Part shown: one piece after another, positions 27,204 through 32,510 of the stretch
How the letters are laid out: each line of letters opens with the position of its first letter
Position numbering within the stretch: position 1 is the first letter of the stretch
Assembly (NCBI GenBank): GCA_021806745.1
Contig: JAJZQS010000011.1
Location: forward strand, 1 to 41,775
Direction: 5' to 3'
Length of the DNA: 41,775 nucleotides
Source: a bacterium
GTDB lineage: Bacteria > Elusimicrobiota > Elusimicrobia > UBA1565 > UBA9628
Program-made: the position numbers and the translations under genes
The notes under the pieces: model-generated
Told to the model about the DNA's origin: nothing
Databases searched by the model: none
Seen by the model: the letters and a program-made list of their open reading frames with translations, nothing else

Positions 27204-27986
27204 TCAGCTCTGGCAGCGGGGGCAATGCGGGCTCGAGCGTCCGCCGATGGGGCGGCGGGTGTCGCGCACCGGGCCGCCGCAGGTCCCGCAGGCGCGGCGG
27301 CCGTAGACTTTTACGCGCTCCTGCATGCGCCCCGGCCGCCCCAGCGGGTCGAGAAACGACTCGTCGTCGAGCGTGGAGCCTCCCAGCGAGACGCCAAGTT
27401 CCAGCACGCGTCGGCAGGCCGCCGCCAGCGACGCCGTCTCGGCGCGCGTCAGCGACCCTCCCGCGCGCGCGGGGCGCACGCCGGCCAGGTGCAGGGCCTC
27501 GCTCGCGTAGATGTTGCCAAGGCCGGCGATGAGCCGCTGGTCCATCAAAAGCGCCTTGACCGGCGCGCTTCGCCCGCGCAAGACGGCGCGAAGAACCGAG
27601 GCGTCGAAGCCGGGGTCCAGCGGCTCGGGGCCGAGAGCGGGCAGCGGTCCGCCGACGCGGCCGAAGCGGCGCGCGTCGTGGAAGAAGATCTCATCGTCTC
27701 CCGCGCGAAAGCTCAGGCGCGCGTGGGGGCCGTCCTTGCCGATCGTCAGGCGCCCGGACATGCCCAGGTGGAAGACGACCGATCCCCGGCCCTCCAGGTC
27801 CAGCAGCAGGTATTTCCCGCGGCGGCGCCAGCCCGCGACGCGGCCGCCCTCGAGCGCTTTCAGCGCGACGGCGGGCGGTCGGCGGTAGAAGGTCGGCCGT
27901 CCCACGGCGACGCCGCAGACGACGCGCCCGCGCAGTCGCGCGTCCAACGCGCGGCGCACGGTCTCGACTTCCGGCAGTTCCGGCAC
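27204..27986 (-). CDS. mutM: Formamidopyrimidine-DNA glycosylase
   Basis: 260 residues, of normal length. The N-terminus MPELPEVETVRRAL supplies the catalytic Pro2 and Glu3; GWRRRGKYLLLDL has the conserved Lys, and GLGNIYASEALHLAGVRP the helix-two-turn-helix. The C-terminal zinc finger is CGTCGGPV...CPRCQ with the DNA-contacting Arg in IGGRSSPH. It removes 8-oxoguanine and ring-opened purines. It starts with GTG 7 nt after the stop of the MoaD-MoeB-rhodanese gene and is probably read from the cysteine operon promoter. Its place there may reflect an oxidative-stress link, but this is conjecture. Confidence 0.96.
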   Translation of the reverse strand: MPELPEVETVRRALDARLRGRVVCGVAVGRPTFYRRPPAVALKALEGGRVAGWRRRGKYLLLDLEGRGSVVFHLGMSGRLTIGKDGPHARLSFRAGDDEIFFHDARRFGRVGGPLPALGPEPLDPGFDASVLRAVLRGRSAPVKALLMDQRLIAGLGNIYASEALHLAGVRPARAGGSLTRAETASLAAACRRVLELGVSLGGSTLDDESFLDPLGRPGRMQERVKVYGRRACGTCGGPVRDTRRPIGGRSSPHCPRCQS

Positions 27987-27993
27987 GGGGGCG

Positions 27994-29415
27994 TCAGTAG
28001 AGCGGCACCGACGGATCGATCTCCTCGGCCCACGCGTTGATGCCGCCGCAGACGTTGATCGCCCGGAAGCCCTGAGAGCACAAAAACGCGACCGCGCGCG
28101 CCGAGCGTCCGCCGGACTTGCAGTGCACGATGATGGTCAGCGACTTGTCGAGTTCGGCGACGCGGCCGGGAAGCTCGCCCAGCGGGATGAGCTTGGCGCC
28201 GGGAATTTTGGCGATCTGATGCTCGTGCGGCTCGCGGACGTCGATGAGAATGAATTTCTCGTTCTTGTCGAGCTTTGACTTGAGCTCGACGACGGTGATC
28301 TCGGGATGGGTCGGCATGGTTTTCTCCTTGAGGCCGCAGAAGGCCTCGTAATCGATCGGGGCGGTGACGGTGGGCTTGTCTCCACAGACCGGGCAGGCGG
28401 GATTTTTCTTCACCTTCAGCGTCCGCCAGGACTGCTCGAGCGCGTCGTAGAGCATCAGTCGGCCCACGAGCGGGCGTCCGACGCCGAGCAGGAGCTTGAG
28501 CGCCTCCACGGCCTGCATCGTGCCGATGACGCCGGGGAGAACTCCCAGCACGCCGCCTTCGGCGCACGACGGCACCAGCCCGGGCGGCGGCGGCTCGGGA
28601 TAGAGGCAGCGGTAGCAGGGGCCTTGCGGCGCGGCGAACACCGACAGTTGGCCCTCGAAGCGGAAGATCGAGCCGTAGACGTTGGGCCGGCCGGTGAGAA
28701 CGCAGGCGTCGTTGACCAGGTAGCGCGTGGGGAAATTGTCGGTGCCGTCGGCGACGAGGTCGTAGCGGCGAAAGAGCTCAAGCGCGTTGGCCGAGGTCAG
28801 GCGCGTCTCGTGGGTCTCGACGGCGATGTGGGGATTGAGCGCCTCCAGGCGACGCTTGGCCGAGGCGAGCTTGGGCGTTCCGACCGAGGGGGTGTCGTGG
28901 AGGATCTGGCGCTGGAGGTTGGACTCCTCGACCGCGTCGAAGTCGACGATGCCGATGCGGCCCACGCCGGCCGCGGCCAGATACAGCGCCAGCGGCGAGC
29001 CCAAGCCTCCGGCGCCCACGCACAGCACCGAGGAGTTCTTGAGCTTTTTTTGCCCGTCGGGGCCGACTTCGGGCAAGATCAGGTGGCGGTGATAGCGTGC
29101 GAGCTCCGCGCGGCCGAGCTCGGCGTCGGCGGCCAGCGTCGCGCCGCCGGCGATGGCGGGCACGATCAAGACGGTGTCGCCGTCGCGCAGCGGCGTGGCC
29201 AGCCCCTGGCGGTCGCGGGCATCCTCGTCGTTGACGTAGACGTTGACGAAGGAGCGCAGGGCGCCTTCCGGAGTCATCAACTGGGCCTTGAGCCGCTCGT
29301 GGCGCGAGCACAGCGCCTCCAGAGCCTCTCCGACGGTGGCCGCCGTCACGGAGACGACCTCTTGACGGTCGGCGAGGGCGCGCAGGGCCGAGGGCAGGCG
29401 AATGTCGACGCTCAT
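27994..29415 (-). CDS. MoaD/CysO-like carrier - MoeB/ThiF E1-like - rhodanese fusion
   Basis: 473 residues in three parts. Residues 1-91 are a ubiquitin-like sulfur carrier (VNVYVNDEDARD, LRDGDTVLIVPAIAGG) whose GG is at 90-91. Residues 103-345 are a MoeB/ThiF/Uba4 adenylyltransferase: GAGGLGS ATP loop (134-140), ESNLQRQ, GTDNFPTRYLVN, Cys284 in SCAEGGVLGVLPGVIG, and zinc pairs C267/C270 and C341/C344. Residues 370-473 are a rhodanese with C432 in HCKSGGRS. In M. tuberculosis the separate CysO and MoeZ do these jobs: MoeZ adenylates and thiocarboxylates the CysO tail. Here the carrier GG is followed directly by ATLAADAELG, so the carrier must be cut, work in cis, or be only a docking domain. 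ATGA overlap with the JAMM gene. Confidence 0.93.
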   Translation of the reverse strand: MSVDIRLPSALRALADRQEVVSVTAATVGEALEALCSRHERLKAQLMTPEGALRSFVNVYVNDEDARDRQGLATPLRDGDTVLIVPAIAGGATLAADAELGRAELARYHRHLILPEVGPDGQKKLKNSSVLCVGAGGLGSPLALYLAAAGVGRIGIVDFDAVEESNLQRQILHDTPSVGTPKLASAKRRLEALNPHIAVETHETRLTSANALELFRRYDLVADGTDNFPTRYLVNDACVLTGRPNVYGSIFRFEGQLSVFAAPQGPCYRCLYPEPPPPGLVPSCAEGGVLGVLPGVIGTMQAVEALKLLLGVGRPLVGRLMLYDALEQSWRTLKVKKNPACPVCGDKPTVTAPIDYEAFCGLKEKTMPTHPEITVVELKSKLDKNEKFILIDVREPHEHQIAKIPGAKLIPLGELPGRVAELDKSLTIIVHCKSGGRSARAVAFLCSQGFRAINVCGGINAWAEEIDPSVPLY

Positions 29416-29861
29416 GAGTCCTCCAGCACGATCTCTTCTTCGACGAACGAACGGCCGTCTTCGGTGCGCTGCCAACTGCGCCCGTCCAGGGGCGCGCCCG
29501 CGTCCACGCGCACGATCCAGTAGCTCAGGCACGGCCAGGCCATCTTGAGGTCGAAGGGCGAGGGCCAGGCGGGATGGTCGGGGTGGGAGTGGTAGAAGCC
29601 CACGACTCCGCGCCCGGTGCCCGACAGCCCGCGCTCGACTTCGGCCAGTCGGCGCGGGTCGATCGCGTAGCGGTTGGTCTTGGCCGAGGAGTCCCAGCCG
29701 TTGGGCAGCGCGAGCGCTCGGTCGGCGCGCACCTCGCGGCCAAGGCGGTCGAAGTCCTCCGGCACGGGGCCAAGCAGCAGTCCGCAGGCCTCCTCGGGGT
29801 AGGCCGCGGCGCAGGCCCGGGAGACTTCATCGACGACTTCGCGGCCGGCGCGCAGGGTCAC
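29412..29861 (-). CDS. JAMM/MPN metallopeptidase, Mec-like
   Basis: 149 residues. The JAMM zinc signature is complete: E24 in YPEEACGLLLG, then H91-S-H93 and, seven residues on, S101-P-F-D104 (HSHPDHPAWPSPFD). Mec of Mycobacterium and similar JAMM peptidases free cysteine from the CysO-cysteine adduct or trim residues after the GG of sulfur carriers. The gene lies between cysteine synthase and the carrier/E1/rhodanese fusion, with GTGA and ATGA overlaps on both sides, which is strong evidence for the same job here. Its likely substrate is therefore the carrier part of the fusion protein. Cytoplasmic. GTG start chosen because it gives the overlap and the normal family length. Confidence 0.92.
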   Translation of the reverse strand: MTLRAGREVVDEVSRACAAAYPEEACGLLLGPVPEDFDRLGREVRADRALALPNGWDSSAKTNRYAIDPRRLAEVERGLSGTGRGVVGFYHSHPDHPAWPSPFDLKMAWPCLSYWIVRVDAGAPLDGRSWQRTEDGRSFVEEEIVLEDS

Positions 29862-30787
29862 GGCGCCCAGAACCTCTCGCCGAGGTAGCGCTCCCCGGCG
29901 TCGCAGAACACGGTCGCGATCACGGCCTCGCGGCCCTGCTCGGCGAGTTCCCGGCCCAGGCGCAGGGCCGCGGCCAGGTTCGCGCCGCCGGAGGGTCCAA
30001 GCAGAATCCCCTCGCGGCGCGCCAGAGCGCGCGCGGCCTCGCGCGCCTCGTCGGTGGAGACCTCCATGCGCGCGTCGGCCACCGCGTCGTCGTAGATCGC
30101 CGGCACGATCGAGGTCTCCATGTGCTTGAGGCCTTCCAGGCCGTGCATGGGTCCGTCGGGCTGCATCGAGATCAGGCGCACCTCGGGCTTGAGCTCGCGC
30201 AGCCGCCGCCCCGTGCCGACGAAAGTCCCGCTGGTGCCCAGGCCCGCGACGAAGTGCGTGATCGCGCCGGCGGTCTGCGCGAAGATCTCGGGGCCGGTGG
30301 TCTCGTAGTGCGCGCGCCAGGTCATCGGGTTCGAGTACTGGTCGGCGTAGACATAGCGCTGCGGCTCGGCTTTCATCATCAGCCTCACCTCGCGGATGGC
30401 GCCGTCGGAGCCTTCGAGCGGGTCGGTGAACAGCAGTTCCGCGCCGTAAGCCTCCAGGATCGCGCGGCGTTGGCGCGACAGGGACCCGGGCACGGCGAGG
30501 CTGACGCGGTAGCCCAGGCGCGCGCCGATCCACGCGTAGGCGATGCCGGTGTTGCCCGAGGAGGAGTCGAGCAGGATCTTGTCGCGCGTCAGCCGCCCGC
30601 TGTCGACGGCGTCGCGGAAAATGTAGAGCCCGGCGCGGTCCTTGACGGAGCCGCCGGGGTTGTGCCACTCGGCCTTGCCGAGCACGCGCACGCGGGGCCC
30701 GAGCTCCGGAAAGGCGCGGCTGACGTCGAGAAGGGGGGTGTCGCCGACGCGCAAGGCTTTCGGGTCGAGGGCGGCGCGGGAGGGCAC
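29858..30787 (-). CDS. cysM: PLP-dependent cysteine synthase (CysM/CysK family)
   Basis: 309 residues. The PLP lysine is K49 in WHNPGGSVKDRAG; SSSGNTGIAYA is the substrate loop, GLGTSGTFVGTGRRL the phosphate-binding loop and GPSGGANLAA the second loop near the cofactor. Chemistry: replaces the acetyl or phosphoryl group of an activated serine by sulfide or by a thiocarboxylated carrier. The next two genes are a Mec-like JAMM and a CysO-like carrier, so the sulfur donor is probably the protein thiocarboxylate, as for M. tuberculosis CysM; this is inference from context, not from the enzyme sequence. It begins with GTG preceded 6 nt upstream by a -10 box. First gene of the operon that ends with mutM. 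Confidence 0.9.
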   Translation of the reverse strand: MPSRAALDPKALRVGDTPLLDVSRAFPELGPRVRVLGKAEWHNPGGSVKDRAGLYIFRDAVDSGRLTRDKILLDSSSGNTGIAYAWIGARLGYRVSLAVPGSLSRQRRAILEAYGAELLFTDPLEGSDGAIREVRLMMKAEPQRYVYADQYSNPMTWRAHYETTGPEIFAQTAGAITHFVAGLGTSGTFVGTGRRLRELKPEVRLISMQPDGPMHGLEGLKHMETSIVPAIYDDAVADARMEVSTDEAREAARALARREGILLGPSGGANLAAALRLGRELAEQGREAVIATVFCDAGERYLGERFWAP

Positions 30788-30890: not shown

Positions 30891-32510
30891 ATGAAACCGA
30901 TCACGGCGGCCGCGGCGTTGATCCTGGCGGCGACGGCGTTCGCCGACCCGGGACCCTGGCCGAGCTTGGCCGCGCCCGCGAAGTCCGTGGGCGGCGGGGC
31001 CCGGGACGCCGCGGTGATCGTCGGCATCGGCAAATACGACGCCGTGCCCCCCGTCGTCGGGGCCGCCGAGAACGCCCGCGACTGGTATGAGTATTTGACC
31101 GCCACGCGCGGCGTGCCTGCGCAGAACGCGCGCCTGCTCATCGACGGAGACGCCGCGCGCGAAGACATCTTGGAGGCGGTCAAGACCGCCGCCCGCCGCG
31201 TGGGGCCGGGGGGAACTCTCTGGTTCGTGTTCGTCGGCCACGGCGCGCGCGGCGCCGACGGTCGCGACGGCCTGCTGGCGGGCGTCGACGCCCGGCCCAG
31301 CCTGAGCAGTCTCCAGGCGCGAAGCGTGGCGGAAAGCGAATTGCTGCGCGCCCTCGCCCGCGGGCGAGAGCGAGACGCGCTGGTCGTGCTCGACGCGTGT
31401 TTCTCGGGGCGCGACGAAGACGGCCGCGAACTCGTGGCCGGCCTGCAGCCGCTGATGCCGAGCATGGGCGTGCGCGTCCCGGACCCGCGCGAGGCCGTTT
31501 TGACCGCGGCGGCGGGAGATCAGTTCGCCGGAGCGCTTCCCGGCGAGCAGCGTCCCGCGTTCAGCTACCTCATCCTGGGCGGTTTGCGCGGCTGGGCCGC
31601 GGACGCGCGCGGGGTCGTGACGGCGGAAGGTCTCTGGAGCTACGCGCGCCGCGCGCTGGAGGCGACCGTGCGCGGGCGCGAGCAGTCGCCGCAGCTATGG
31701 GGAAACCGGCGCGCGGCCTGGGCGAGTTCCCGCGAGCCGGGGCCCGACTTGGCCCGCGTGGCGCTGGCGACGGCGGGTTCGGCTCGCGCGGGAGCCGAGG
31801 CGGCCGTCGGTGACGGCGTGGAAATCGAGTTCAAGGACGGCTCGCAGTTGTCCGGCGTCTTGTTCCGGCTCGACGAACGCAGCGTGGGGCTAGACAGTTC
31901 CGGGATGCGCACGACCTGGCCCCGTTCCGAGGTGGCGCGCATGATCGTGCGCGCCACATCGCAGCAGCAGTTCGACGACTTGATCGCCAAGGCGGGAGAC
32001 GACCGCGCCAAGCTTCTGGCCGCCCTCGATTTCGCCCGCGACCGTCACCTCTACACGGACTACGACCGGCTGCGGACGCGGCTTGGCCTGCCGCCGGACC
32101 CAGCCAGCCTTCCGCACGCGCAGGAGGCCTTGCGCCCGGCGTGGTCTGCGCCGCCCGTCGAGCGTCGGCGCCGACATCGGCGCGGCGACGACGGCGCAGG
32201 CGACGATGGCGGCGACGATGGGTCGGCGGACTCGGGCGAGGGGGCGCCGCCGCCCCCCGCGGCGACGCCGCTGGGATTTCAGCCGCAGCAGGAATTCGCC
32301 GCGTCGCAGGAGACGGCGATGGGCGGCGAGTTGCCCGGCGCGATCTTGTATTACGGAGGCCCGGCTTGTCCCGGCGGGGCCTGCGGCGGAGGCTTTGGCG
32401 CCGCGCCCGCGATGCCGCGCTATTCTCCGGTCAACGAAGGGCACGTTCCGACTCCGGCGATGGAGTTCCAGCGGTCGCTGCAGAACCTGATCAACCGCAA
32501 CGCGCCGTAA
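30891..32510 (+). CDS. Secreted caspase-like (peptidase C14) protein
   Basis: 539 residues. A signal peptide (MKPITAAAALILAATAFADP) sends it out of the cytoplasm. The caspase-fold domain spans about 38-265: start AAVIVGIGKYD, catalytic H117 in FVFVGHGARG, catalytic C170 in VVLDACFSGR, then a conserved AGDQFAGALPGEQRPAFSYL. Both residues of the dyad are present, so it may be active. After it come a small beta-rich segment (about 300-345), a helical part, a disordered Arg/Asp/Gly-rich stretch (about 423-450), Pro/Ala-rich sequence and a Gly/Cys-rich end. Related bacterial orthocaspases cut after Arg or Lys. Neither the substrate nor a partner can be seen. Its 3' end overlaps the convergent epimerase gene by 20 nt. 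Confidence 0.9.
   Translation: MKPITAAAALILAATAFADPGPWPSLAAPAKSVGGGARDAAVIVGIGKYDAVPPVVGAAENARDWYEYLTATRGVPAQNARLLIDGDAAREDILEAVKTAARRVGPGGTLWFVFVGHGARGADGRDGLLAGVDARPSLSSLQARSVAESELLRALARGRERDALVVLDACFSGRDEDGRELVAGLQPLMPSMGVRVPDPREAVLTAAAGDQFAGALPGEQRPAFSYLILGGLRGWAADARGVVTAEGLWSYARRALEATVRGREQSPQLWGNRRAAWASSREPGPDLARVALATAGSARAGAEAAVGDGVEIEFKDGSQLSGVLFRLDERSVGLDSSGMRTTWPRSEVARMIVRATSQQQFDDLIAKAGDDRAKLLAALDFARDRHLYTDYDRLRTRLGLPPDPASLPHAQEALRPAWSAPPVERRRRHRRGDDGAGDDGGDDGSADSGEGAPPPPAATPLGFQPQQEFAASQETAMGGELPGAILYYGGPACPGGACGGGFGAAPAMPRYSPVNEGHVPTPAMEFQRSLQNLINRNAP

Follow-up and report, generated by a model that had tools for sequence, protein, structure and literature searches.

In the HcyS/HcyD pair of Wolinella and the QbsE/QbsD pair of Pseudomonas, a JAMM peptidase (HcyD, QbsD) trims the short tail that follows the glycine-glycine (GG) motif of a free sulfur carrier. 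Such tails resemble those of the tailed relatives gathered here, whereas the carrier under study is followed by a fused enzyme: it forms the N-terminal part of a 473-residue protein that continues into a MoeB/ThiF-type activating enzyme (E1) and a rhodanese, encoded beside a JAMM gene in DNA of 41,775 nucleotides from a bacterium of phylum Elusimicrobiota (assembly GCA_021806745.1, contig JAJZQS010000011.1, positions 1 to 41,775; this whole stretch is called the window). As judged from sequence comparison, the fusion is probably a pro-carrier, which the JAMM peptidase of the same operon would cleave after Gly91 before releasing cysteine at a later step.

In the mycobacterial cysteine pathway, CysO is thiocarboxylated by MoeZ, CysM forms the adduct and Mec hydrolyses it (PMC3227635). 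Iyer et al. 2006 (PMC1779556) described a type 4c gene set composed of a ThiS/MoaD carrier, E1-rhodanese, JAB peptidase and cysteine synthase, and considered that JAB might cleave off a fused ThiS or MoaD, giving a free C-terminus for sulfur transfer. Peptidase HvJAMM1 cuts SAMP1-MoaE precisely after Gly, which is needed for its activity (PMC4443979), DR0402 cuts MoaD-MoaE (PMC8832034), and MoaX, a MoaD-MoaE protein, must be cut at Gly82-Ser83 by a protease not identified there (PMC4326299).

The window displayed the same four functions as the mycobacterial CysO/MoeZ/CysM/Mec+ system. Its carrier domain aligned over the whole length of PDB chain 3dwg_C, which we take to be CysO of M. tuberculosis, and also with the ThiS/MoaD family protein 4n6e_B. 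Chain 3dwg_C is a separate chain of 93 residues, matched to its last residue, whereas the window carrier is fused to the MoeZ-like enzyme and its GG is internal, so that a free GG end would need cleavage. The gene set of type 4c was present together; the available part of its description lists the E1-rhodanese fusion, but not a carrier joined to that E1. MoaD-MoaE, SAMP1-MoaE and MoaX likewise have an internal GG in a MoaD-like carrier and need cleavage after Gly for activity. Their partner is MoaE, a sulfur user of molybdenum cofactor synthesis, whereas that of the window carrier is the E1-rhodanese, its loader, in a cysteine pathway; the SAMP1-MoaE construct is moreover artificial in Haloferax. 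MoaE was not found in the window's genome.

The earlier note, made from the window's sequence alone, had described a tightly overlapped operon of cysM, JAMM peptidase and 473-residue fusion, with the GG at residues 90-91 followed directly by ATLAAD. Coordinates, Pfam matches, the two 4-nt overlaps and the translation agree with that description. The features are, on the minus strand:

29858-30787 (read 30787 to 29858), minus: cysM-like pyridoxal phosphate (PLP) enzyme, 309 residues, GTG start, first gene of the operon; Pfam PALP 215 bits
29412-29861 (read 29861 to 29412), minus: JAMM/MPN+ peptidase, Mec-like, 149 residues, GTG start; Pfam Prok-JAB 74 bits; overlaps both neighbours by 4 nt
29550-29591, minus: JAMM zinc motif HSHPDHPAWPSPFD, residues 91-104
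27994-29415 (read 29415 to 27994), minus: fusion of CysO-like carrier, MoeB/ThiF E1 and rhodanese, 473 residues, ATG start
29143-29415, minus: carrier domain, residues 1-91; Pfam ThiS 57 bits; matches 3dwg_C over residues 1-91
29143-29148, minus: codons of Gly90-Gly91, candidate cleavage point after Gly91; GG kept without exception in an alignment of 36 fused proteins
29125-29142, minus: linker, residues 92-97 (ATLAAD); residues 90-98 predicted with low confidence (below 50)
28381-29124, minus: E1 (MoeB/ThiF) domain, residues 98-345; DGTDN, SCAEGG; C267, C270, C341, C344
27997-28317, minus: rhodanese domain, residues about 367-473; Cys432

The three genes were consecutive, with 4-nt overlaps at both junctions (GTGA, ATGA), and the ATG of the fusion was preceded by GGAGG. 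The peptidase displayed the catalytic E24 and an intact H91-S-H...S-x-x-D zinc motif, as the earlier note had numbered them. Pfam located ThiS at residues 5-91 of the fusion, ThiF at 108-343 and rhodanese at 375-464. Seven residues (D226, C267, C270, C284, C341, C344 and C432) were invariant across 36 aligned fusions and mark a MoeZ-type E1-rhodanese; we take them to be catalytic and zinc residues, C267, C270, C341 and C344 presumably being the zinc cysteines and Cys432 the active-site Cys of the rhodanese. The cysM-like protein scored 314 bits against TIGR01138 (cysM), under the cut-off of 394, and its PDB relatives included cysteine synthase B (2bht) and 3dwg_A. It displayed GGSVKDR from residue 45, presumably the PLP lysine motif, and Lys221 instead of Arg at the position that we assume to be the O-phosphoserine-binding site of M. 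tuberculosis CysM.

A frameshift or assembly error behind the fusion was ruled out by 21 further full-length loci among 57 other genomes; since the fusion was recovered full length in these and in other phyla, the open frame is no assembly accident. An internal start yielding a free E1 as well was also rejected, the linker DNA having no in-frame ATG, GTG or TTG; such a start would in any case have left the carrier unfreed.

Residues after GG and the presence of JAMM

The survey comprised 58 genomes (the window's and the 57 others) and, in addition, 340 genomes of phylum Elusimicrobiota. From public genome contigs, the best 80 of 575 relatives were taken as named loci with a profile built from Elusimicrobiota, and are no guide to overall prevalence. 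Locus L068, whose contig is also that of L012, was dropped before counting, as were two matches below 80 bits, and the window was not among the 130 carriers counted.

All 21 further full-length fusion loci displayed JAMM and CysM genes immediately upstream. Outside Elusimicrobiota, fusions were encountered in Acidobacteriota, Chloroflexota, Gemmatimonadota and archaea of Thermoplasmatota. The fusion, whose internal GG the earlier note had regarded as the unusual point, thus proved to be recurrent. Globally, the 130 CysO-like carriers were divided into 44 fused to E1-rhodanese, six fused to E1 alone, 50 free carriers with residues after the GG and 30 ending exactly at GG; among the 49 from Elusimicrobiota, 27 were fused, 16 tailed and six exact. 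The earlier note was right about the fusion and had overlooked that tails after the GG are common in free relatives. In 49 of the 50 tailed carriers the tail was one to 20 residues long, while that of L119 continued for 80 residues into a NIL domain. These free tails were short and mostly dissimilar to one another.

As a control, 40 other carriers of the ThiS/MoaD family were taken from the phylum (all 39 ThiS-family matches of one search that were not CysO-like and one from another search, about 40 weaker matches being excluded). Exactly at GG ended 39 of them and none displayed residues after it, the exception (G052, contig 3) being a partial match that ended without GG. Because the control carriers stop at GG, residues after it appear as a habit of the CysO-type carrier and not of the fold.

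Presence of JAMM followed the same division. It was encountered in the same locus for 43 of 44 E1-rhodanese fusions, one of six E1 fusions, 30 of 50 tailed and ten of 30 exact carriers. Where the locus lacked it, the whole genome was searched for Prok-JAB above 50 bits, matches of 20-30 bits being ignored as probably RadC-like, which is a guess. Counted anywhere in the genome, JAMM accompanied 44/44 E1-rhodanese fusions (in L072, the 44th, it lay elsewhere in the genome), 5/6 E1 fusions, 46/50 tailed and 17/30 exact carriers. To the question raised earlier, whether the fusion always occurs with JAMM, the answer is thus affirmative for E1-rhodanese fusions at the level of the genome, with one E1-only fusion as exception.

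Taken together, 95 of 100 carriers with internal GG came from genomes encoding JAMM, against 17 of 30 with terminal GG (Fisher p = 2e-6, with related rows). When this association was tested with the tree as control, there were just two and four supported pairs and too little power; for both reasons the Fisher value overstates the case, and the direction was relied on instead. Viewed from the other side, 13 of the 18 carriers in genomes without JAMM ended exactly at GG and five did not.

Fused and free carriers were placed on a tree built from 81 E1 domains. Outside it lay six carriers whose locus includes an E1: those of L128, L117, L119 and L177, removed by the filter on E1 length and score, and the two of L138, left out by hand. 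The tree called for 13 switches between fused and free states (12-14 over bootstraps), of which at least eight were forced by supported branches. The main E1 clade (70 rows) included 25 free carriers, every one of them tailed and none ending at GG; L128, outside the tree, would be the one exception, with a terminal-GG carrier beside E1-rhodanese, JAMM and CysM. The simplest reading of these sequences is that the stop codon of the carrier can drift once a protease trims whatever follows the GG. A split form was encountered in the window's own genus (genome G011, locus L026), where the carrier ended in GG-Leu and its stop overlapped the E1 start (TGATG); a one-base error retains a small chance as its cause, although open reading frame lengths in five 19-kb stretches elsewhere in that genome resembled those of the window.

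Several marks were found at the proposed bond itself. All of 36 non-redundant fusions had P at position -6, A at -3 and G at both -2 and -1, and variation jumped from the next residue on. At that next residue (P1'), 28 of the 36 had Ser, Ala or Thr, against 39 % across the linker (p = 3e-6, for a class picked after seeing the data), and none of 51 fusions had Pro, which made up 15 % of the linker. In free tails the first residue was Ser, Ala or Thr in just 18 of 50, so a trimming enzyme would need wider acceptance there. From the GG to the RYxR motif of the E1, the linker measured eight to 46 residues in 49 fusions. An AlphaFold2 model of the fusion had a mean predicted local distance difference test (pLDDT) score of 88.7, with residues 90-98 below 50; the GG and linker are thus predicted to be disordered, which is consistent with an exposed, flexible joint.

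Alternative explanations and proposed maturation

The comparative evidence (conserved GG, co-occurrence with JAMM, tails and P1' residue) favours the suggestion of the earlier note that the carrier is first freed by JAMM, cleavage itself being inferred. Besides the choice of residue class and the low power of the tree-controlled test, the following weigh against it. Five of 100 carriers with internal GG (L103, L117, L176, L193 and L196) were from genomes without JAMM above 50 bits, three of these being 72-79 % complete and the other two of no stated completeness. Ten of 30 terminal-GG carriers, mostly from Actinobacteria, displayed JAMM in their locus, and JAMM therefore does not demand a tail. 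According to PMC8832034, HvJAMM1 reportedly does not depend in vitro on the GG when it acts on linear fusions, so that conservation of the GG need not reflect cleavage alone. To these is added the precedent of MoaX, whose processing after Gly82 in M. smegmatis falls to a protease not identified in PMC4326299. This precedent and the five carriers without detected JAMM would fit a cut after Gly91 by some other protease, the operon JAMM merely hydrolysing carrier-cysteine; that course of events is improbable in view of the JAMM present for 95 of 100 internal-GG carriers and of the equivalent fusions cut by HvJAMM1 and DR0402.

It is similarly doubtful that the uncut fusion is functional, its carrier domain docking to or regulating the E1, or chemistry in cis bypassing a free C-terminus. 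Campylobacter-type proteins, which also display an N-terminal ubiquitin-like domain on a ThiF protein, lend this some plausibility: Iyer et al. 2006 (PMC1779556) consider that domain to have another role than that of carrier, given the separate ThiS that goes with it. It belongs, however, to a family distinct from ThiS and typically occurs with a separate ThiS, whereas the window's genome, a metagenome-assembled genome 93.6 % complete, yielded the fused carrier as its sole ThiS-family match. A free second CysO-like carrier, which according to the earlier note would reduce the fused domain to a docking module, was thus looked for there and not found; nor was one above 90 bits present in the 28 genomes of the phylum with a fusion (for many of them the best 15 candidates were scored), several of which had weaker, MoaD-like matches. 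The GG was moreover invariant while the linker was not, and uncut MoaX G81A was inactive, although its authors allow for a direct effect of the change (PMC4326299). For the new mechanism in cis envisaged earlier, nothing was found in support.

A plain gene fusion without special meaning, with no CysO route and a CysM using free sulfide, is very unlikely. The score of the CysM below its equivalog cut-off, and Lys221 in place of Arg at the presumed O-phosphoserine-binding position, would agree with it. The window's genome displayed no CysE above 35 bits, and because of this no clear supply of O-acetylserine; in addition, 43 of the 44 loci with an E1-rhodanese fusion, which come from different phyla, keep all four functions together. 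Strong CysE matches (above 90 bits) were found in 3/23 genomes with the CysO-JAMM operon and 12/35 others, which was not significant (p = 0.12).

Under the favoured pro-carrier reading, the carrier would first exist as an inactive precursor, joined to the enzyme that activates it, and the JAMM peptidase of the operon would cut it after Gly91, yielding an ordinary E1-rhodanese of MoeZ-like kind and a carrier whose C-terminus is GG. The further steps are borrowed from the mycobacterial pathway: the MoeZ part would adenylate and thiocarboxylate the freed carrier, CysM would use the carrier's sulfur to convert an activated serine (O-phosphoserine, in all probability) into carrier-cysteine, and the same JAMM would hydrolyse this, delivering cysteine and regenerating the carrier. 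If JAMM tolerates residues after the GG, the stop codon of the carrier would be hardly constrained, and relatives could consequently drift between short tails and fusions to the downstream gene (E1-rhodanese, E1 and, once, NIL). The fusion, while uncut, may in addition serve as a brake, in that new pro-carrier and cysteine-loaded carrier would compete for the same JAMM. This wider picture, with a two-step JAMM (pro-carrier processing and cysteine release), a stop codon freed from selection, repeated fusions in bacteria and Thermoplasmata and a possible brake, is offered tentatively, its chances being slightly below even.

The principle of such maturation is already known. New, as far as searched, are the joining of carrier, E1 and rhodanese in one protein, how widely this form occurs, its exchange with tailed carriers and the correspondence of internal GG with JAMM; in the open literature, searched by phrase and by title and abstract, no paper on the carrier-E1-rhodanese fusion was found among the matches listed. 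The earlier note knew of no work on how such a fusion matures, which agrees with these searches for the carrier-E1-rhodanese fusion; maturation of MoaE fusions by JAMM is published and was foreseen in broad outline in 2006. These proteins would represent natural, widespread precursors of ubiquitin-like type that share a single chain with their E1, a dedicated deconjugating protease adjoining, and the origin of ubiquitin-style precursor processing thereby becomes testable in a simple three-gene bacterial operon. Annotations of MoeB type can also hide a cysteine-pathway carrier in genomes seemingly devoid of CysE.

Neighbouring genes and related loci

Downstream of the fusion, an open reading frame at 27204-27986 (minus strand) begins at most 10 nt past the fusion stop; by eye, we take it to resemble a MutM/Fpg DNA glycosylase. 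The divergent neighbour at 30891-32510 (plus strand) resembles a caspase-like peptidase, also by eye. Elsewhere in the window's genus, one or two extra rhodanese genes were located downstream of the fusion (L013, L015 and L017-L020).

Among free carriers, four from Acidobacteriota (L088, L093, L101 and L143) shared a Cys-rich end, R-C-[IA]-C-[SR], in their tails. A locus from Dehalococcoidia (L138, 4979-6384) displayed tandem carriers, of which one was tailed (GG-GWA) and the other joined to an E1; genes for CysM and JAMM followed downstream. In three other loci (L050, 4444-5730; L119, 3714-5516; L180, 3315-5952) a CysO-like carrier followed a threonine-synthase-like PLP enzyme, which matched TIGR00260 at about 288 bits in L050 and L119 and was scored by PALP only in L180. 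A NIL-domain gene adjoined the carrier in L180 and L077, and carrier and NIL domain were fused in L119. Loci combining threonine-synthase-like enzyme, carrier and NIL domain perhaps represent a carrier-dependent route to homocysteine from O-phosphohomoserine.

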